Shown here in pieces: positions 2-41,666 of a stretch of DNA of 64,000 bases. The stretch covers positions 1,054,001 to 1,118,000 of the forward strand of contig JAFHKN010000002.1 in assembly GCA_016937575.1 (NCBI GenBank), given 5' to 3'. The notes beneath the pieces are model-generated. The model worked only from the letters and a program-made list of their open reading frames with translations, was not told where the DNA came from and ran no database searches. Numbering within the stretch: the stretch's first letter is position 1; each line of letters starts with the position of its first letter. The position numbers and the translations under genes are program-made. This DNA comes from Roseomonas aeriglobus (GTDB lineage: Bacteria > Pseudomonadota > Alphaproteobacteria > Sphingomonadales > Sphingomonadaceae).

Positions 2-1468
2 ACGCTCGCCAACGTGTACCAGTCGATCGAGCATGATCATGAGATCATTCCGGTCATCAACAAGATCGACCTGCCCTCCGCCGAGCCCGAGAAGGTCAAG
101 ACCGAGATCGAGGAGATCATCGGCCTCGACGCGTCGAACGCCGTCCTGTCCTCGGCCAAGTCGGGGATCGGCATCGAGGAGATCCTGGACGCGATCGTCG
201 AGCGCATTCCGGCGCCCAAGGGCGACGCCGACGCGCCGCTCAAGGCCATGCTGGTCGACAGCTGGTACGACCCGTATCTGGGCGTCGTCATCCTGGTCCG
301 CGTCATCGACGGCATGATCAAGAAGGGCCAGCAGGTCAAGTTCATGGCGACCGGCACGACCCACCTGATCGACCGCGTCGGCGCCTTCCGCCCCAAGCTC
401 GAGAACCTGCCCGACCTGGGGCCGGGCGAAATCGGCTTCATCACCGCGCAGATCAAAGAAGTCGCCCAGGCCCGCGTCGGCGACACGCTGACCGATGCGA
501 AGAAGCCCGCCGCCGAGCCGCTGGAGGGCTTTAAGGAAGTCCAGCCGGTCGTGTTCTGCGGCCTGTTCCCGGTCGACGCCGCGGACTTCGAAAAGCTGCG
601 CGAGAGCATCAGCAAGCTGCGTCTGAACGACGCCTCGTTCAGCTTCGAGATGGAGACGTCGGCGGCGCTCGGCTTCGGCTTCCGCTGCGGCTTCCTGGGC
701 CTGCTGCACCTGGAGATCATCCAGGAACGGCTGATGCGCGAATACGACCTCGACCTGATCACCACCGCACCGTCGGTGGTCTATCAGATCGAGCTGACCC
801 ACGGCGGCGGGCACATCGACCTGCACAACCCCGCCGACATGCCCGAGCCCAACAAGATCGAGACGATCAGCGAGCCGTGGATCCAGGCGGTCATCTACGT
901 CCCCGACGAATATCTGGGCTCCATCCTGAAGCTGTGCCAGGACCGCCGCGGCATCCAGAAGAACCTGACCTATGTCGGCGGCCGCGCCCAGGCGACCTAC
1001 GAACTGCCGCTCAACGAAGTCGTGTTCGATTTCTACGACCGGCTGAAGTCGCTGTCGAAGGGCTATGCCAGCTTCGACTATGAACAGATCGGCTATCGCG
1101 AAGGCGACCTGGTCAAGATGGGCATCCTGGTCAACGAAGAGCCGGTCGATGCGCTGAGCATGATCGTCCACCGCTCCACCGCCGAAACGCGCGGCCGCGG
1201 CATGGTCGAGCGGCTGAAGGAACTGATCCCGCGCCACATGTTCAAGATTCCCATCCAGGCCGCGATCGGCGGCAAGGTGATCGCCCGCGAGACGATCAGC
1301 GCGCTGCGCAAGGACGTGACCGCGAAATGCTACGGCGGCGACGCGACGCGCAAGCGGAAGCTGCTGGACAAGCAGAAGAAGGGCAAGGCGAAGATGCGGG
1401 AATATGGCTCGGTGAGCATCCCGCAGGAGGCGTTTATCGCGGCGCTGCGGATGGGTGACGACGCCTGA
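2..1468 (+). CDS. lepA: Elongation factor 4 (LepA), 5' end outside window
   Basis: Ribosome-associated translational GTPase that back-translocates or remodels stalled elongating ribosomes. 488 residues are visible of about 600; the frame is open through the left edge, so the P-loop and switch regions lie outside. Seen here: the G4 motif NKID at about residue 20, a G5-like SAKSG at about 51, the EF-G-like domains, and the LepA-specific C-terminal tail [20 protein letters not shown]. The stop TGA is at 1466-1468. No obvious terminator follows, only a short GC-rich hairpin. Intact and confidently assigned apart from the missing N terminus. Confidence 0.97.
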
Positions 1469-1731: not shown

Positions 1732-2301
1732 CTATTCGGCCGGCAATGCGGGAGGGGAAACCGAACCCTGATCAGGCACAATTGGAAACTCCTGCTGAAA
1801 GGTGCCAAAATGTATAAGAAGCCGCTGGAGCCTCAATATTCGATGCTGTCGCCCTGGGATACTCATCGCCCGCGCTGCTGCATCTTCACAGTCGAACACT
1901 AGGGCGCGAAGCTCGCTAATGCATTCTTCTTCAATCGCCACCCGCTCTTCCGTCCATCGTCGAACATCATCCACCGTTGGCGAGGTCAGAAGGAAAATGT
2001 CCGAATAGAGGCGACTCCATCGTTTCATCCATTGAGCATGCGCAGTCCCAGCAGGACCTAGGCGCAAGATGACCTGGACGAGCGATATAACAGTGACGGT
2101 GGCGGCACCGATCTTTGCAAGCCAGCCAGGCGAGCCAGCCATCAGATCGCCAAATGCCGAGGCGCCGGCAGCGATGGTTACGAGGGTAAATAGCGTGTCA
2201 AGGTTGCTTAGAAAGGCCGCTCGGCGCCGATGATATCTGGAGGAGTACTCTGCGCGATATAGTAGCTGCCAGCGGCACTCCTCCAACTCATCCTGCGTCA
2301 C
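1732..2301 (-). CDS. SLATT-like two-transmembrane protein
   Basis: 189 residues with GTG start at 2301. An N-terminal amphipathic part containing YRAEYSSRYHRRR (residues 15-27) is followed by two hydrophobic helices at about 33-54 and 60-82, then a long charged helical C-terminal region. This layout fits the SLATT class (SMODS/SLOG-associated two-TM effectors, thought to act as membrane pores in conflict systems). The family call is by pattern, not alignment. The start overlaps the stop of the 47-residue gene upstream (GTGA), and there is no Shine-Dalgarno before it, so translation is probably coupled. A+T content is higher than in the flanking core genes, suggesting acquisition. It could also be an unrelated two-TM protein. 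Confidence 0.62.
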   Translation of the reverse strand: MTQDELEECRWQLLYRAEYSSRYHRRRAAFLSNLDTLFTLVTIAAGASAFGDLMAGSPGWLAKIGAATVTVISLVQVILRLGPAGTAHAQWMKRWSRLYSDIFLLTSPTVDDVRRWTEERVAIEEECISELRALVFDCEDAAARAMSIPGRQHRILRLQRLLIHFGTFQQEFPIVPDQGSVSPPALPAE

Positions 2302-2441
2302 TTTTTTGGACGAGGAGGAGGAGCTTGCTCCGATGTGGTGCGGCCCGTCTGACTTTTGTTGCCGTATCCGTCGTTAAGCGGCTTTGGCGGTTGTTGAGGT
2401 GAAGGCTGGTTCCGACCGCCGCCACGTTTGTCTTCTGCCAT
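2298..2441 (-). CDS. Small Pro/Lys-rich hypothetical protein (47 aa)
   Basis: Starts at ATG 2441 behind an AGGAG-type ribosome site (AACGCTAGGAGATAGGGAT precedes the start) and stops at 2298-2300, overlapping the GTG of the SLATT-like gene. The product is hydrophilic, rich in Pro, Lys, Gly and Gln, starts MAEDKRGGGRNQPSPQQPPK and ends QAPPPRPKK; it is probably disordered. The strong ribosome site and the 4-base overlap with the next gene argue that it is real. I do not recognise a family. It may regulate or chaperone its membrane-protein neighbour, or just serve as the translation lead-in. Confidence 0.6.
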   Translation of the reverse strand: MAEDKRGGGRNQPSPQQPPKPLNDGYGNKSQTGRTTSEQAPPPRPKK

Positions 2442-2462
2442 ATCCCTATCTCCTAGCGTTGG

Positions 2463-2493
2463 ACAATAAGAGAACATCGCGTCTATGAGTCAA
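2463..2493 (-). promoter_or_regulatory. Possible promoter of the 47-aa/SLATT pair
   Basis: On the minus strand TTGACT (2493-2488) is followed after 19 bases by TATTGT (2468-2463), 21 bases before the small gene's ATG. The spacing is long, so this is a weak call. It would make the pair independent of the broken gene upstream. Confidence 0.25.
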
Positions 2494-2567: not shown

Positions 2568-3623
2568 CTAAAGTCCGTACAATAAGGTTGCCGCGTGACG
2601 CACCTCGCCGGGCGTCGTAGCGATAATAGTCCTCAAATACTCTAGAAACTCACTGCCTCGGTTGAGGGAAAAAATACGAGCGCGATAATCGAGCTCAGCG
2701 ACGCAACGCTTGTGGCGGAGGAGTTCAGCGCACTCATTATCGATGAACATGGCGTCCACGTATGGCGCGTAGGCGGCTATCGCCGACACGTCGCCCATGA
2801 AGCCCGCTGACGGCTTCTTCTTCCTCCCGTTTGCGAATTGGTCGGCGAGCGCTGCGAAAAGGTATGCGAGCAGCTTACCGAAGGGCTGCTCGCGATTTTG
2901 CGGCCAGCTCCAAAATTCTTGCACCTTAGCATTGAGCTGCTCCTCGGCTATGCCGATTTGACTGAATAGCCGCCGCAAAAGCTGCAGTTCCCGCATGGCG
3001 AAGCCCTGCGAAAAATTGAGCAAGGCAAACACGTCGTTGTCGGCCAGCCCCCTCTCAAAGCTGTTCTGAGCGGCTCGTAGCCCCTCGATGCGACTCTCGT
3101 GGTACGCGCCGAGTTCTTGGGCAAGCACCTGGTCAAAGCCCATGCCCTGGGCAATCCATCTATCGGTGAGCTGGCTGACGGACTCGCCGATCTGTTGTCT
3201 ACTTTGACGGGTTTCGCCGGTGAAGCTGCTCCAATCCATCCTCACGCTTACCCGGATGTCCGGCAGCCACTCGTTGCGAGACCCGTCCAAGATCTCGTCA
3301 ATGTTCGTGTTGACGACCGGCGCTAGCCCCTTCACGTACGCCGCTGCGAAACTCTCGACCTGGCTAAACTGAATTTCACTTGCGTCGGTGAACCGTATGT
3401 CGCCGCCAATATGCTCTTGGGTATCGCGAAGCTCCTTGGGAAACGGGCTAACGATGGTTTCGTTATGGTGGATGTCCGAGTGCGGGAGTACGACCTGTTG
3501 GAGAAGCACCGCCTGGGTCACCAGATCAGAGAACTCTGTCCAGAACTCGGTTCGCTTGTCTGGTCTACGCGTGCCCGTCCGTAATTTGTGCAGCTCGCTG
3601 AAAACGAATTGGTCGAGATAGAT
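2568..3623 (-). pseudogene. Zinc-ribbon/PIN-like protein, 3' part (split by IS)
   Basis: Downstream part of a gene cut by the IS at 3624-6485. In frame above the first internal GTG (3521) it reads IYLDQFVFSELHKL directly from the IS edge, so the original start was not here. With the part at 6486-6672 and one copy of the AGAT duplication removed, the frame is continuous for 412 residues. Candidate PIN-like acidic residues in that numbering are D65 (in YLDQ), E116 (HHNET), D339 and D351/D356 (YVDAMFIDNE). PIN folds are metal-dependent RNases; this assignment rests on the acidic layout only. It lies 126 bp upstream of the small Pro-rich gene on the same strand. A remnant starting at GTG 3521 could be translated but would lack the zinc ribbon and first acidic motif. 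Confidence 0.7.
3620..3623. repeat. Target-site duplication AGAT, left copy
   Basis: AGAT directly precedes the left terminal repeat and recurs at 6486-6489 directly after the right one. A 4-bp duplication fits some IS3 subgroups. Confidence 0.85.
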
Positions 3624-3682
3624 TGACCTGCTCCCCGGAAATCATGCCATTGATAAGTTAGCTCGTCAGATGGAGACGAGTG

Positions 3683-3946
3683 ATGCGGCGAGGCCGATTT
3701 ACCGAGGATCAGATCATTGGCGTGCTGCGCGAGCATGAGGCTGGCGTGAAGACCGCCGAGCTATGCCGGAAGCACGGGATCAGCGACGCGACGTTCTACA
3801 ACTGGAAGGCGAAGTATGGCGGTATGACCGTGTCAGAGGCGGCGCGGTTGCGGACGCTGGAAGACGAGAACCGCCGGCTGAAGAAGCTGCTGGCGGAGTC
3901 GATGCTGGACGTGTCGGCGTTGAAGGATCTGCTGGGAAAAAACTGA
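3683..3946 (+). CDS. IS3-family transposase OrfA
   Basis: 87 residues from ATG 3683 (a GTG lies directly before). N-terminal helix-turn-helix (FTEDQIIGVLREHEAGVKTA, then the recognition helix around ISDATFYNWKAKYGG) binds the IS ends; a C-terminal leucine-zipper-like helix (LRTLEDENRRLKKLLAE) mediates oligomerisation. It ends in the heptamer A_AAA_AAC (3937-3943) directly before TGA, the classical signal for -1 slippage into OrfB. Intact, but with OrfB broken it can act only as a DNA-binding inhibitor. Confidence 0.92.
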   Translation: MRRGRFTEDQIIGVLREHEAGVKTAELCRKHGISDATFYNWKAKYGGMTVSEAARLRTLEDENRRLKKLLAESMLDVSALKDLLGKN

Positions 3947-4492
3947 CCCGGTCTGTGGATCGCTACGCTGCGGTGGAGAAGCTGATGGCCGACCACGGCT
4001 TCTCCGAGCGTCGCGCCTGCAGGCTGATCGGGGTCAACCGGTCGGCGTGGCAATATGAGCCGCTTCGCGGAAGGGACGATGCTGTCCGCGCGCGGATGCG
4101 CGAGATCGCCAACGAGCGTCGTCGGTTCGGCTATCGCCGGCTGGCGATCCTGCTCAGGCGGGAGGGCAAGGGCATGAACCTGAAGAAGGTGTACCGGCTA
4201 TACCGCGAGGAGCGGCTGACGGTGCGCAAGCGTGGCGGTCGCAAGCGAGCGCTGGGAACGCGGGCGCCGATGGCGATCCCGCAGGAACCCAACCACCGCT
4301 GGTCGCTCGACTTCGTGTCGGATGCATTGGCCTGCGGCCGGCGGTTCCGTATGCTGAACGTCATCGACGACTACAGCCGGGAGTGCCTGGCGTGCATTGT
4401 CGATACCTCGTTATCAGGCCGGCGCGTCGTCCGCGAGCTCGCCGCCATCGCCGAACGTCGCGGGCTGCCGTGCATGGTGGTCAGCGACAACG
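3942..4492 (+). pseudogene. IS3-family transposase OrfB, 5' part
   Basis: Read in the -1 frame after the slippery site (GKKLTRSVDRYAAVEKL). Contains the HTH_21 region (FGYRRLAILLRREG) and the first catalytic Asp in HRWSLDFVSD, and ends inside the second catalytic motif at CMVVSDN. There the IS110-type element begins; the natural continuation [12 protein letters not shown] is found at 6157. The codons beyond 4492 belong to the inserted element. Confidence 0.9.
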
Positions 4493-4730
4493 TCCTATGT
4501 CGGGAAGCAGCGGCGGGTTTTGGCCAGCAGATATCCATGCGCCGACAACCGTCGGCGCGGCATGCAATCTGAGCCAGATGGCTCCCACCGTCAACGGGAT
4601 CGCTCCCTGCCATAGCAAACACAGGATCCAGCAGCGCCGAGGCGGCCGTGGTCCTCACCATCCTTAAAACGAGATACGCACCCAGGTGGAAGGCCCGAAC
4701 ATTATCTACAGGGTCGCTCGACGAGCGCCC
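4493..4730 (-). ncRNA. Candidate bridge-RNA region of the IS110-type element
   Basis: Non-coding stretch downstream of the transposase stop. It contains a perfect 8-bp hairpin at 4539-4558 (GCGCCGAC, loop, GTCGGCGC) and a second at 4571-4584 (GAGCC, loop, GGCTC). IS110-family elements encode a structured guide RNA whose loops pair with donor and target; in the IS1111 subgroup it sits in this position. On the minus strand the stretch includes TCCCGTTG, identical to the uninterrupted target across the insertion point. The RNA itself is inferred; ends are not defined. Confidence 0.4.
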
Positions 4731-6002
4731 TCACGGCACTTGCAGAGAGGGGTCCTTCCACCTGGCATCCGACCGTTCGAGGAACGGCCGGTACTCTGTC
4801 CCCGTCTTGATGACGGCGTGAGCCACGCGCGCCATCTTGGCGGTGAGCGCCGTCATCGCCTTGCGGCGACGGTCGGCATCGTCCGCGTGCCCGGCGACAT
4901 ATCGTCCGAGCTTGTCGCGGAAGCTGTTGTCGCGCTGACGCGCGGCGACCTGGGCAGCCATCCAGAAGGTCCGGCGCAGGCGCGCATTGCCGTACTTGGA
5001 CAGCTTCGTGCGGCCACGGAACGTGCCTGACTGACACGTTGCGAGATCGAGACCGCAGAACTTCAGGAACTGACGATGATGGTTGAAGCGCCGCAGATCA
5101 CCGGCCTCGGCCAGGATGGTCAGCGCGTTGATCGGACCGATGCCCGGAATGTTGCGCAGCAGCTGGTAGTCGACGTCATCGGCGAGCCGCGCATGGGCCA
5201 GCCGCTCGATCTCGTCTCGCTGGTGGATGAGGCTGCGGCCCTGCGCGATGACCATGCGGAACATGGTGATGGCGGCTGAGTTCTCCGGCACCGGCAGTGC
5301 CGTCGAGGCGGACGCCGTCTCGTAGATGTCGTTGATGAGGCGTGCCTTGGAGACCTTGCGGCCGATGAGCGGCCATGCCGCGGCCGAGAACGCCTCGCGG
5401 TCCAGCGCCGTGATGGTGGCCGGCGTCGGAAACCGCTCGATGAGCGCCAGGAACCAGTCGGACCGGCTGTTGCCTGCGAAGCGGGCGATCTCGGGGAAGT
5501 ACAGCGGCAGGTAGTGGGTCAGGATCCGATGCCAGGTCTGCGTCTTCATCCTTGAGATCGTCTCGTGAGTCTTCGAGAGCTCCTGCAGGTCGTTGATTCC
5601 GGCCACCAGCGGGTCGACGTAGCGCTGCGTCGCACCGATCCGCAGCATGTGCAGGATGACCTGCGCGTCCTTGGAGTCGTTCTTGTCCCAGCCGTTGTGC
5701 AGCGCCTCGCGCGTTCTGGCGAGCGCGACCGACGAGATGAGGCGCAGCTCGAACCCTGCCGTCAGCAGCCGGTGCGCCAGCGTACGATGGTAATTACCCG
5801 TCGCCTCGAACCCGACGATGATAGGGCGCCCGATAGCAGCGAGTTGCTCGGCAAAGCCGTCATAGTCCTGCCTGGTCGCCATGACGGTCATCCGCCGGCG
5901 CCGGCCGCCTTCCGGTCGCTCGATGAGAACCTCCTGTCGGCTCTTGGACATGTCGATGGCTACCAGCACGGCGCCGGCAGGCGTAGAGGTGAGCTTGGTC
6001 AT
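4731..6002 (-). CDS. IS110-family DEDD transposase/recombinase
   Basis: 423 residues from ATG 6002, chosen because GGAGG lies 10 bases upstream and the family begins near here; a longer frame reaches 6065. The RuvC-like domain shows D17 (VAIDMSK), E66 (GFEATGNYH) and D109/D112 (KNDSKDAQVI), the DEDD set. The C-terminal Transposase_20 domain has the helix-hairpin-helix-like IPGIGPINALTILAEAGD and the conserved Ser region QSGTFRGRTKLSKYGNARLR. It carries out RNA-guided insertion and excision of its own element. No frameshift seen. Confidence 0.95.
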   Translation of the reverse strand: MTKLTSTPAGAVLVAIDMSKSRQEVLIERPEGGRRRRMTVMATRQDYDGFAEQLAAIGRPIIVGFEATGNYHRTLAHRLLTAGFELRLISSVALARTREALHNGWDKNDSKDAQVILHMLRIGATQRYVDPLVAGINDLQELSKTHETISRMKTQTWHRILTHYLPLYFPEIARFAGNSRSDWFLALIERFPTPATITALDREAFSAAAWPLIGRKVSKARLINDIYETASASTALPVPENSAAITMFRMVIAQGRSLIHQRDEIERLAHARLADDVDYQLLRNIPGIGPINALTILAEAGDLRRFNHHRQFLKFCGLDLATCQSGTFRGRTKLSKYGNARLRRTFWMAAQVAARQRDNSFRDKLGRYVAGHADDADRRRKAMTALTAKMARVAHAVIKTGTEYRPFLERSDARWKDPSLQVP

Positions 6003-6070
6003 GGTCGGTCGGCCTCCAAAGTGTTGTCTCGACAACCTCACTTTAGATACCTGCTGACCGGCCATGGCTT

Positions 6071-6118
6071 GCCCTGATGAAGTCTGCGGCCGCTACGCGG
6101 CCTTGTCTTCATCAGGGC
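6071..6118. repeat. Long hairpin in the left end of the IS110-type element
   Basis: GCCCTGATGAAG (6071-6082) pairs with CTTCATCAGGGC (6107-6118), and between them GGCCGC-TAC-GCGGCC forms an inner stem. It lies between the element's outer end and its transposase promoter, where it could block read-through or be part of an RNA. Confidence 0.6.
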
Positions 6119-6156
6119 CATAGCGGCTCCCGAACCAGCGCTTCCCAATGTGCTAC

Positions 6157-6468
6157 GGGACCGAGCTGACCAGTCACGCCGTCCTTGCCTGGTGCCAGGA
6201 CACCGGGGTCGAGTGGCATTACATCGCGCCCGGCAAGCCGCAGCAGAACGGCTTTGTAGAGTCGTTCAATGGTCGCTTGCGCGACGAGTGCCTGAACGAG
6301 CACTTGTTCCCCTCGCTGGCTGCGGCGAGGCGGATCATCGCGGCATGGCGGGCGGACTACAACACCGTGCGTCCGCACAGCAGTCTTGGCGGGTTGGCAC
6401 CCGCCGAGTTCACCAACCGCCCCCGCCAAGGGCATAAGGAAAACGAAGCTAACTTATCAGCGGCCTGA
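6157..6468 (+). pseudogene. IS3-family transposase OrfB, 3' part
   Basis: Continues the DDE domain from [17 protein letters not shown] to the catalytic Glu in [19 protein letters not shown], and then the usual C-terminal segment [18 protein letters not shown]. Stop at 6466-6468, 5 bases before the right terminal repeat. Separated from its 5' part by the nested element. Confidence 0.9.
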
Positions 6469-6485
6469 AAATGGGGAGCAGGTCA

Positions 6486-6672
6486 AGATGACACGCTTGT
6501 TGAGGGCGGGAAGCAATTCATTATGCGAGTAGCGGCAGCGTTTGCACCGTTTGCGCACGCTGTCCTTGTCTATCGAGAGTCGTCCGAAAGTGCCCGGCGT
6601 TTGACACTTGGGGCATGTTTCAAACGGTGGCTGCTCCCAACTGAACCCGTTAGGCAAAGTTGGCCGCTTCAT
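6486..6672 (-). pseudogene. Zinc-ribbon/PIN-like protein, 5' part (split by IS)
   Basis: Starts at ATG 6672 and codes 62 residues before the IS edge. It has two Cys pairs, CPKC at 20-23 and CKRC at 43-46, a zinc-ribbon arrangement, and then LLPALNKRVI. Joined to 3619-2568 it continues as YLDQFVFSEL with no frame change. As it stands the frame runs into the IS and stops at 6457. The ribosome site before ATG 6672 is weak. The A+T content resembles the 3' part, consistent with one acquired gene. Confidence 0.72.
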
Positions 6673-6890: not shown

Positions 6891-7856
6891 TCACTCCCCA
6901 CACCACTTCGCCCAAGCCTCATCACTCCCCGTCGCCTCCCACAACGCCTGCGCCTCGGCCATCATCGCCTTCGCCCGCCGCTGCGCCTGCGCCCGCGCGT
7001 CCTTCCCGTAGCATTCCACGCCGAACCCGTTCTGCACGCGCGGCAGGCGCACCGGGGGGCGGGGTGGGTCGCCGATGCGGTCCCAGACCTTTTGTCGGAT
7101 TTCGGCCAGGATGTCGCTCATCGGGTCGGCATAGGGCTCGTCGCCCCGGCGCACGCCGTTTTCGTCGAAACCGGTGCAGCGATCGATCAGCGCGGCGCTG
7201 TGCCCGCCGACGACCATGACCAGTTCGAGGAAGCTCAGCTGGCGCAGCGTGTAGTCGGCGGCGACGACGCGACCTTCGAGGCGGAGGTTGCGTTCCTGGA
7301 TGACCTTGGCCTCATATTGTTTCAGCATCAGGCCGAACAGGCGCTTGTTCTCCGCCTCGTCATTCCGGAGCGCGAGGCGTTCGGCCTTTTCGGCTTCCTT
7401 CTTTTCGCGCGCGATCGTGTCGGGGTGTTTGGTGCCTTCGCGTAAGCGCCCCGCCGGCGTGCCGTATTTCGCAGGCATGTGGTGGCGCAGGATGAACATC
7501 AGCAGCTTGTCGTTGTACCGCCGCTTCTCGCCGACCTGTTCGCCCTTCCAGAAGATGGGGACAGGCGTGCCTTCGCGTGCGCGGTCGATGGCGATGTCGG
7601 CGAGGGATTGGACGCCGTGGTCGAGCGCATCGGCCCAGGCGGCGGCGAATTCCTCGGCGCCCGGCTGGCGGCGCAGATGATAGGCGCCTTCGGTACTCAT
7701 GTTGATGCGGCGCGCGGCGGCGGTGACCGATCCCGTTTCCGCGAGCGCGGCGATGAAGGCGCGTTGCCGCTCCGCGGTCCAGCCGTCGAAGCGATATTTG
7801 CGGGGGACGGGCGTGAAGTCACGCACCGGGCGAACGGAGGGGACCATGTCTTGCAT
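6891..7856 (-). CDS. Terminase-small-subunit-like HTH protein
   Basis: 321 residues from ATG 7856; a longer frame reaches 7910. Residues about 30-80 (RAFIAALAETGSVTAAARRI, then MSTEGAYHLRR) form a helix-turn-helix like those in phage terminase small subunits. The middle is Lys/Glu-rich and probably coiled (EKKEAEKAERLALRNDEAEN); the end is Ala/Arg-rich. No terminase large subunit, portal or capsid gene is nearby, so a domesticated DNA-binding protein is as likely as a phage remnant. Function unknown. Confidence 0.65.
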   Translation of the reverse strand: MQDMVPSVRPVRDFTPVPRKYRFDGWTAERQRAFIAALAETGSVTAAARRINMSTEGAYHLRRQPGAEEFAAAWADALDHGVQSLADIAIDRAREGTPVPIFWKGEQVGEKRRYNDKLLMFILRHHMPAKYGTPAGRLREGTKHPDTIAREKKEAEKAERLALRNDEAENKRLFGLMLKQYEAKVIQERNLRLEGRVVAADYTLRQLSFLELVMVVGGHSAALIDRCTGFDENGVRRGDEPYADPMSDILAEIRQKVWDRIGDPPRPPVRLPRVQNGFGVECYGKDARAQAQRRAKAMMAEAQALWEATGSDEAWAKWCGE

Positions 7857-7986
7857 GGCGCGCGTATATAACCAGATAGGTTCGTGTAGGAAAATGGTTT
7901 TTGGCGTCACGCTGTAAAAATAAGCGGTGACACCCCTCCGTCAGGCCTGTGGCCTGCCACCTCCCCTTGCAGGGGAGGAAGGGCGG

Positions 7987-10832: not shown

Positions 10833-13052
10833 TCAGGCCGCGGCCACGGCCTCGCCCATCAGCGCCGGGAAGAATGCTTCATGCCGTGCGCGCAGATCGT
10901 CGATCGTCACGCAGAAATCGTTGTCGCGCGTCTCGAACACCAGGCGGCTGGCGATGGTGCGGCCGATGCGCTCGACCGCGACGCCCGCGGCGGTCGAGGC
11001 GTGGAGGAAGTCGTTGAGGTGCGCGTCGTCGACGGTCGCGAGATACAGACCCTGGTCCTCGGCGAAATAGGTTGCCGCGAGCCCACGCGGGGTGGGCATC
11101 GACACCATCGCGCCGATGCCGCTGGCCAGCGCCATTTCGGCGAGCGCGACCGCGATGCCGCCGTCGGACACGTCATGAACCGCGGTCAGGGCGCCGCGCG
11201 TGATCTGGTCGCGGACGAAGTCGCCGGTGCGGCGTTCGGCGGCCAGGTCGACGCGCGGGGGCGGGCCGTCCTCGCGGCCCTTCACCTCGCGCAGCCACAG
11301 CGACTGGCCGAGGTCGCCCTTGGGCTCGCCGATCAGGACCAGCACGTCGCCGGTGCCCTTGAAGCCAATCGTCGCGGACTTGGACCAGTCGGCCAGCAGC
11401 CCGACGCCGCCGATCGCCGGGGTCGGCAGGATCGCGGAGCCGCCACCGGTCGCCTTCGATTCATTGTAGAGCGACACGTTGCCCGAGACGATCGGATAGT
11501 CGAGCGCACGGCATGCCTCTGCCATCCCCTCGATACAGCCGACGAACTGGCCCATGATCTCCGGGCGCTGCGGGTTGGCGAAGTTCATGCAATCGGTCGC
11601 GGCAAGCGGCGTCGCGCCGACCGCGGTCAGGTTGCGCCACGTCTCGGCGATCGCCTGCTTGCCGCCCTCGACCGGGTCGGCGAAGCAATAGCGCGGGGTG
11701 CAGTCGGTCGTGATCGCCAAACCCTTCTGCGTACCGTGGACCCGCACCACGGCCGCGTCGCCGCCGGGGCGCTGGACGGTATCGGCGCCGACCATGTGGT
11801 CATATTGTTCCCAGATCCAGCGGCGCGAGGCGAGATCGGGGCAGCCGACGAGGGTCAGCAGATCCTTGGCGAGGTCGTCGCTTTCCGGCGCGTCGGTGAT
11901 CGCCGGCCGCGGCGGGGTCGGCACGTGCGGGCGGTCATAGGCCGGGGCTTCGTCCGCCAGGGGTCCGAGCGGGATGTCGGCGACCGTCTCGCCCTTCCAC
12001 TTGAGCACCATGCGGCCGGTGTCGGTCACGCGGCCGATGACGGCGAAGTCGAGTTCCCACTTGCGGAAGATCGCTTCGGCGAAATCCTCGCGGCCGGGCT
12101 TGAGCACCATGAGCATGCGCTCCTGGCTCTCGCTGAGCATCATTTCGTACGGCGTCATGCCGGTTTCGCGCTGGGGGACGTCGTCCATCACCAGTTCGAT
12201 GCCGACCCCGCCCTTCGACGCCATTTCGACGCTCGACGAGGTAAGACCCGCGGCGCCCATGTCCTGGATCGCGACGATCGCGTCCGATGCCATCAATTCG
12301 AGGCAGGCCTCGATCAGCAGCTTCTCGGTGAAGGGGTCGCCGACCTGGACGGTCGGGCGCTTGGCGTCGGCGTCTTCGCCAAAGTCGGCGCTGGCCATCG
12401 TCGCGCCGTGAATGCCGTCGCGACCGGTCTTCGATCCGACATAGACGATCGGGTTACCGACGCCGCTGGCAGCCGAATAGAAGACCTTGTCGGTCTGCGC
12501 GACGCCGACGGTCATCGCGTTGACCAGGATGTTGCCGTCGTACGCCGCGTGGAAATTCGTCTCGCCACCGACGGTCGGCACGCCGACGCAATTGCCATAG
12601 CCGCCGATGCCGTGGACGACGCCCGAGATGAGGTGCTTCATCTTCGGATGATCGGGCCGGCCGAAGCGCAGCGCGTTCATGTTGGCGACCGGTCGCGCGC
12701 CCATGGTGAACACGTCGCGCAGGATGCCGCCGACCCCGGTCGCCGCGCCCTGATAGGGTTCGATGTACGACGGGTGGTTGTGCGATTCCATCTTGAACAC
12801 CGCGCACTGGCCATCGCCGATGTCGACGATGCCGGCGTTCTCGCCGGGGCCGCAGATGACCTGCGGGCCGGTGGTCGGCAGCTTCTTCAGGTGAATGCGG
12901 CTCGACTTGTAGCTGCAATGCTCCGACCACATGACCGAAAAGATGCCCAGTTCGGTCAGGTTCGGCGTCCGCCCCATCGCGTGCAGGACGCGCTCATATT
13001 CCTCTTCGGACAAGCCGTGGTCGGCGACGATCTGGGGCGTGATCTCGGTCAT
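10833..13052 (-). CDS. purL: Phosphoribosylformylglycinamidine synthase subunit PurL
   Basis: 739 residues, the size of the small PurL that works with PurS and PurQ in step four of purine synthesis (FGAR + ATP + glutamine-derived ammonia to FGAM). Start at ATG 13052 ([20 protein letters not shown]). Visible signatures: [46 protein letters not shown] Gly loops, and [11 protein letters not shown]. PurS and PurQ are not in the window. Ends 8 bases from the family A repeat. Confidence 0.98.
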
Positions 13053-41243: not shown

Positions 41244-41666
41244 TCAGGCGGTATCCCAGGGATTGAGAAGGGCGACCCCGGTCGCCTCGAAATCCTGTAC
41301 GTTGCGGGTCACGACCGTCAGATTATGGACGAGGCCCGTCGCGGCGATCCAACCGTCGCGTTCGCTCACCGGGTCGGGGACGTGCAGCGAAGCGCAGGCC
41401 GTCGCGGTCACGTCATCCAGCGGCAGGATGCGGCCGGCAAAGCCCGGTCGGACAACGGTGTCGAGCCATCTGCGCAGGACAGCGCCTTGCCGGGCATCAC
41501 GTCGCTCGGCCCTCACGACGCCACGTTCGAGTTCGAACACCGACATCGCCGATAGGAACGTCGTGGCGGGATCGGCCGCCTTCAGCCATGCGACCACACC
41601 CGGTGCTGCGCGACCGGAGCCGATCTTTCGACTTTCGGAAATGACGTTGGTATCGATCAGGAACAT
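41244..41666 (-). CDS. VapC/FitB-type PIN-domain toxin
   Basis: 140 residues. PIN acidic residues: FLIDTNVISE (first Asp), SVFELERGV (Glu), and DGWIAATGLVHNLTVVTRNV (third Asp and following Asn). The fold cleaves RNA, often tRNA or rRNA. The ATG shares a base with the antitoxin stop (TGATG), as usual in such pairs. Confidence 0.93.
   Translation of the reverse strand: MFLIDTNVISESRKIGSGRAAPGVVAWLKAADPATTFLSAMSVFELERGVVRAERRDARQGAVLRRWLDTVVRPGFAGRILPLDDVTATACASLHVPDPVSERDGWIAATGLVHNLTVVTRNVQDFEATGVALLNPWDTA

Follow-up and report, generated by a model that had tools for sequence, protein, structure and literature searches.

Within the 64,000-nucleotide window analysed here (G000:C2:1054001-1118000, in a genome of 4.28 Mb), one minus-strand reading frame is split by a composite insertion sequence (IS) into pieces of 62 and 351 codons, with one codon common to both. 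The insertion occupies positions 3624-6485. The frame represents a gene encoding a zinc ribbon followed by a candidate nuclease domain, and relatives of it are found on chromosomes, plasmids and viral contigs. The features of the broken gene and of the element within it are as follows.

2568..3623, minus strand: C-terminal piece of the broken gene, from its translation (351 open codons, 3623-2571, plus stop; start IYLDQF)
2741-2739, minus strand: invariant D356, C-terminal piece
2792-2790, minus strand: invariant D339, C-terminal piece
3461-3459, minus strand: invariant E116, C-terminal piece
3614-3612, minus strand: invariant D65, C-terminal piece
3620..3623: left copy of the target-site duplication AGAT, by sequence inspection
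3624..6485, plus strand: composite insertion element of 2862 bp, IS3-like and carrying a nested IS110-family IS (terminal repeats, HTH_Tnp_1, rve_3)
3624-3636, inverted at 6473-6485: 13-bp perfect terminal repeat TGACCTGCTCCCC, by sequence inspection
3680..3946, plus strand: IS3 OrfA (HTH_Tnp_1, PF01527, E 3.4e-25)
4731..6065, minus strand: IS110-family transposase of the nested element (PF02371, E 9.7e-27; PF01548, E 5.4e-20)
6148..6468, plus strand: IS3 OrfB, C-terminal part beyond the nested IS (PF13683 rve_3, E 1.7e-34)
6486..6489: right copy of the duplication AGAT, by sequence inspection
6487..6672, minus strand: N-terminal piece of the broken gene, from its translation (62 codons, CPKC and CKRC, last residues NKRVI)
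6546-6535, minus strand: zinc-ribbon cysteines C43 and C46, N-terminal piece
6615-6604, minus strand: zinc-ribbon cysteines C20 and C23, N-terminal piece

The broken gene and its insertion element

When the insertion is removed computationally, the reading frame of the reconstructed empty site is continuous. An intact relative (P0002), 87% identical to the C-terminal piece, crosses the junction. An earlier note on this DNA had given the coordinates, the AGAT duplication, the terminal repeats and the frame, all of which are borne out by inspection of the sequence, as are by translation the 62 codons with CPKC and CKRC that end in NKRVI before the IS. The unbroken protein of 412 codons that it predicted has its exact counterpart in the 412 residues of P0002, which is also the kind of uninterrupted orthologue for which it had proposed a search. 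The gene was held in that note to be acquired, and the broken frame is indeed best taken as a horizontally acquired gene because its G+C content lies below that of the window (0.55-0.57 for the genes of its chromosomal slot outside the IS, against 0.66) and because its presence among relatives is patchy: the family was not found in 60 other relatives sampled, 36 of them of the same genus, leaving this genome as the sole carrier among 61.

The inserted element has the features of the IS3 family, namely inverted repeats, a short target duplication and an OrfA helix-turn-helix domain together with an rve integrase, and its OrfB is interrupted by the nested IS110-family IS. A second copy of the composite, at C2:748038-750899, is identical at 2862/2862 bases and has a separate 4-bp duplication (ATAT) at its ends. 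A third, at C2:3197488-3200349, is 96.7% identical. The insertion is young, as had been proposed, because the second copy is identical over the whole 2862 bp. Since the full-length copies all contain the nested IS, the composite evidently moves as a unit. With its OrfB interrupted, the IS3-like element has still transposed, presumably with help in trans.

Family conservation and the candidate PIN-like site

The C-terminal piece matches 376 proteins at E<=0.001, the family profile A2 matches 417, and a distant member (L013) matches 528 at E<=0.01; the best 120 are listed for each search, and the sets may overlap. Sources of the listed relatives include Sphingobium, Magnetospirillum, KSB1, Syntrophomonadaceae, Peptococcaceae and Verrucomicrobia, with a second clade from Burkholderiaceae, Pseudomonas and Azotobacter among the listed L013 matches; a further member (P0050) belongs to Sphingopyxis terrae. 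Conservation was read from an alignment of 289 rows, comprising 275 of 283 proteins and 14 loci (P0001, P0003, P0165 and five proteins under 330 residues were left out), in which distant relatives are under-represented because each search contributed proteins from its top 120 matches only.

The zinc ribbon proposed in the earlier note is upheld without exception, its cysteines C20, C23, C43 and C46 being present in 267/267, 270/270, 277/277 and 277/277 covering rows, respectively; one locus (L066) starts near a contig end and is without the ribbon. Residues D65, Q66, H113, E116, D339 and D356 occur in 289/289 rows, and all of these except Q66 are listed as invariant also in 47 aligned members with 23-62% identity to P0002. 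The acidic residues fall into two halves, D65/E116 and D339/D356, some 220 residues apart, a spacing like that of a split PIN domain, and the insert of about 220 residues contains two conserved tryptophans and E231 (288/289 rows). An acidic site of D65, E116 and D351/D356 had been suggested previously. D65, E116 and D356 stand; D351 varies (268/289 rows) and is rejected as a catalytic residue, and the invariant D339 had been overlooked.

By the matches above the family is large and widespread, and it is without a name in the libraries scanned. Two Pfam scans, one with 78 members of A2 (E<=1; 25 listed out of 54 weak families) and one with 10 members (E<=5), gave mostly weak zinc-ribbon matches, the best being Zn_ribbon_IS1595 (E 0.00039, 24/78 members). 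NCBIfam returned 14 weak families only (best E 0.019), the best PHROGs match was to an unnamed family (E 0.0016; 25 of 48 weak families listed), and PDB profile searches gave no match at E<=1 and four at E<=10, the best an alcohol dehydrogenase (E 0.14). That the earlier note knew of no named family with a zinc ribbon joined to a PIN-like domain agrees with the scans of Pfam, NCBIfam, PADLOC, PHROGs and PDB.

Whether the domain is PIN-like, as also suggested earlier, is a more divided matter. Read from the alignment, the acidic residues run in the order strand-D65, S-x2-H-x2-E116, D339, D356, and three to four ordered conserved acids, the first after a hydrophobic strand as expected of PIN domains, are present in 289/289 rows. 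This order of D, E, D and D fits the PIN motif, and likewise that of VapC-type PIN domains (PF01850), in which a hydrophobic strand ending in D is followed by E and two D. A block for the first VapC strand has its top score at residue 62 of P0002 (z 3.6), which places the motif at D65, and in profile-profile comparison the N-terminal part scores 14.3 against VapC, compared with a shuffle mean of 9.95. Among the 50 strongest mean-field couplings (176 effective sequences; N block 58-125, C block 330-400), 10 link the two halves where 3.9 are expected; the figures are 13 against 7.8 in the top 100 and 21 against 15.5 in the top 200, and coupled pairs between the N block and the insert fall under expectation (4 against 9.4). 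The couplings are suggestive of a single domain with a large insert.

A number of results weigh on the other side. The VapC blocks for E and for the last D are not top-ranked at E116 or D339 in the block scan, and no PIN family is among the Pfam matches listed from the scans described above. In hhalign comparisons with sets built from genomes for PF01850 (25 sequences) and PIN_8 (6 sequences), the family score is lower than the highest obtained from 30 column shuffles in 8/8 cases. The coupling excess fades down the list and, at 176 effective sequences, may partly reflect phylogeny. Residue order, invariance and the first-motif block favour the PIN-like description, the profile matches listed and the profile-profile comparison do not, and the assignment is unproven.

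Distribution, home slot and neighbouring genes

The family is rare and patchy in the genomes sampled. Counting this genome in each case, members occur in 3/396 genomes of the order, 1/385 of the class and 2/398 of the phylum, in searches that scored at most 4 first-look candidates per genome (6 in one further search). The three of the order are this genome, a second of the same genus that carries another intact member (G595) and one of the same taxonomic family (G530). Members are found in 2/72,556 plasmids, the same two records with each of four queries, and one resides on a conjugative plasmid; two queries matched none of 50,697 deposited phages, and 6 distinct viral contigs carry one. Broken copies comprise that of the window, a member divided into two frames (L015), whose plasmid record is complete, and a C-terminal half copy (L017) in a genome (G276) that also has an intact member (L016). 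One further copy (L006) appears frameshifted and is not counted as broken because it sits at the terminus of a contig with low coverage, from a metagenome-assembled genome.

In the window the broken gene lies in a variable slot, the other genes of which are listed here.

14..1468, plus strand: core gene, left border of the slot (at least 83% identity in 60/61 genus genomes)
1732..2301, minus strand: SLATT-like gene (weak; two-transmembrane effector), downstream of the broken gene on the same strand (NCBIfam SLATT_1/SLATT_4, E 0.0079, below cut-off; Pfam SLATT_1, E 0.068)
2298..2477, minus strand: open reading frame (ORF) of 59 residues between the broken gene and the SLATT-like gene, no family match
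6891..7910, minus strand: unnamed right border gene of the slot (weak HTH_1, E 0.002, below cut-off)

The left border gene is presumably lepA, which in the remaining genus genome (G015) has a paralogue-level match only, and relatives of the right border gene lie near lepA in several congeners. The two border genes are 5.4 kb apart in the window. Among eight congener intervals compared, the slot is an empty gap of about 440 bp in G1164 and holds an AAA_13 gene, probably RloC/PrrC-like, in G001, an Eco57I-type methylase gene in G021 and a BLUF gene in G032 (intervals L128, L129, L130 and L133 cover these four states); in G1152, G029, G031 and G006 no recognised defence gene was found among the part of the ORFs that was scanned. 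The slot beside lepA is therefore variable and sometimes, in 2/8 congener intervals, holds defence-type genes. The SLATT-like gene occurs in 1/61 genus genomes, this one, and is not found beside the other members compared; it is rejected as a partner.

No common partner gene emerged from 12 fetched loci and the window when ORFs of at least 60 residues were compared all against all at E<=1e-4, a comparison made without the viral loci, L021 and L022. Its non-family matches were a pair of helix-turn-helix regulators (L002/L014; in L002 some 8 kb separate the regulator from the family gene), a weak match of L006 to the right border gene of the window, and antisense frames.

Several members lie among defence genes. 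The L005 copy is directly downstream of a DUF499-DUF3780-DUF1156 methylase-PLD/SNF2 helicase locus, with DUF6361 further on; the name 'ARMADA' for this type of locus is absent from the BREX paper considered below. The L008 copy is downstream of SIR2_2, HerA and HsdR, and that of L022 is followed by a DUF4238 gene (L022 2223-3176) and then MmeI. In the viral contig L060 the order is opposite, the member being preceded by DUF4238 (L060 2678-3673), beside methylase, spanin and endolysin genes. Other members sit in phage-like surroundings: L063 with an SPP1-type portal gene on one side and, on the other, a gene with a weak terminase-type match (E 0.0011, below cut-off); L066 with a next gene of nearly the same listed start (compare the L063 portal gene); L013 a few kb or less from genes for the large terminase subunit and the portal, with PHROGs of unknown function matched by the closest neighbour scanned; and L061 in the vicinity of HsdM and of the small terminase subunit. 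L062, like L063, L013 and L061 a member on a viral contig, comes after a serine recombinase, with a DnaB-like helicase nearby, and L002 and L021 follow recombinase-like and resolvase-like genes, respectively, both read from sequence. The neighbours of L004 give weak matches only (DUF6998, E 4e-6; HEPN, E 0.0038, below cut-off).

Proposed function and alternative explanations

The product of the intact gene may well be a mobile antiviral nuclease that works by itself, has a split PIN-like acidic site and represents a new family, a reading held here with middling confidence. A PIN-type fold, a helical insert, RNase activity and autoinhibition are inferred, and an antiviral role is likely but unproven. 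An N-terminal zinc ribbon would precede a metal-dependent PIN-like nuclease domain whose catalytic acids are divided, D65 and E116 before the insert of about 220 residues and D339 and D356 after it. Because no conserved partner gene was found in the loci compared, the protein is proposed to silence itself, through either the insert or the zinc ribbon. Infection would switch it on, and cleavage of RNA (tRNA or mRNA) would stop phage growth, with the ribbon as a possible sensor or substrate clamp. In this genome the gene would have arrived with DNA of foreign composition in the slot, to be inactivated recently by the composite IS.

The nearest functional precedent would be DS-3, and a literature search gave, among the matches listed, DefensePredictor (PMC13092281) as the single study judged to describe a comparable protein; in PMC10853773 the phrase 'PIN domain' occurs, among the passages searched, in the reference list only. 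In the passages available from the first study, DS-3 is a one-protein split-PIN defence with no cognate antitoxin, and changes to its catalytic residues abolish protection (PMC13092281). By description, the family would resemble it if it acts as one protein with nuclease residues divided between N- and C-terminal parts, and the same logic may apply. The two differ in that those passages give DS-3 no zinc ribbon, although the legend of Fig. 3C defines 'ZF' for some system. A DUF4238 protein is described, in the part of the paper available, as protecting by itself against T7 (PMC9122126); DUF4238 genes are the same type of cargo as the present family and directly adjacent to it in L022 and L060, but belong to an unrelated protein family (PF14022). 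PIN RNases are also reported, in the passages available, to accompany BREX and related loci as backup effectors of a less common kind (PMC12839542), with no mention there of a zinc-ribbon PIN protein. The L005 copy is comparable in that a Type-2-like DUF499/DUF3780/DUF1156/PLD-helicase locus lies immediately upstream of it, but it is alone in this placement among the loci examined.

Other results count against an antiviral nuclease that acts alone. PADLOC gave weak matches to single members only (best E 0.0089). The viral and plasmid loci were chosen for mobility, and of the 12 loci that were not (the window, L002-L008, L016, L017, L021 and L022), profile-confirmed defence neighbours are present in 3 (L005, L008 and L022), the profile scan having left out 6 (L002, L003, L006, L007, L017 and L021). 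The lack of a partner may also fail at some loci, because the nearest downstream gene in L061 is a RES-domain gene (11258-12133, minus strand) and DUF4238 is adjacent in two.

The protein could instead be a toxin that acts on its own and, by addiction, keeps its mobile element stable, the antitoxin being either unlinked or an RNA. Members on plasmids and in viral contigs are in keeping with this, and the three broken copies (window, L015 and L017) hint at a cost, but the loci compared have no small partner gene in common and some copies lie within chromosomal defence neighbourhoods, so addiction is considered unlikely. A protein of 412 residues with a zinc ribbon and a 220-residue insert is, moreover, unlike VapC-type toxins of about 130 residues, to whose profile the family has no match, and it has no common antitoxin-like neighbour in the loci compared; membership in VapBC is rejected for its length and for the absence of a common partner gene. 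A PF01850 (VapC-like) PIN match is present elsewhere in the window, at 41295-41660 on the minus strand (E 5e-8).

More speculatively, the family might form an undescribed class of single-protein immune nucleases in which zinc ribbon and insert sense infection directly and release the split site. The signal could then be, for example, RNA (nascent or of phage origin) or a transcription complex, and prophages and plasmids would have spread the class across several phyla; this stronger form of the antiviral reading is put forward as a long shot. Carriage on viral contigs and plasmids, and the unproven PIN homology, would suit a protein of anti-defence or superinfection exclusion whose targets are host or rival factors and whose acidic site belongs to a non-PIN fold. 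Such a protein is nonetheless improbable, since the order and invariance of D, H, E, D and D fit a nuclease site and some chromosomal copies adjoin restriction genes rather than lying on elements alone. A housekeeping or stress RNA-processing nuclease that is merely mobile, its ribbon binding RNA or RNA polymerase, is equally improbable: the ribbon weakly resembles Elf1/TFIIB-type ribbons and one annotation source names two listed members Elf1, but the gene has no fixed locus, occurs in the few order and phylum genomes counted above, and exists in broken copies.

This conserved nuclease-like family, of hundreds of sequence clusters, is missing from the libraries scanned, and naming it would supply defence finders with a new model. 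The family would also provide a clean test, with a single gene, of what restrains a split nuclease site when no antitoxin is present. The copy broken by the IS in the variable slot beside lepA is an ordinary case of the loss of a defence-type gene.

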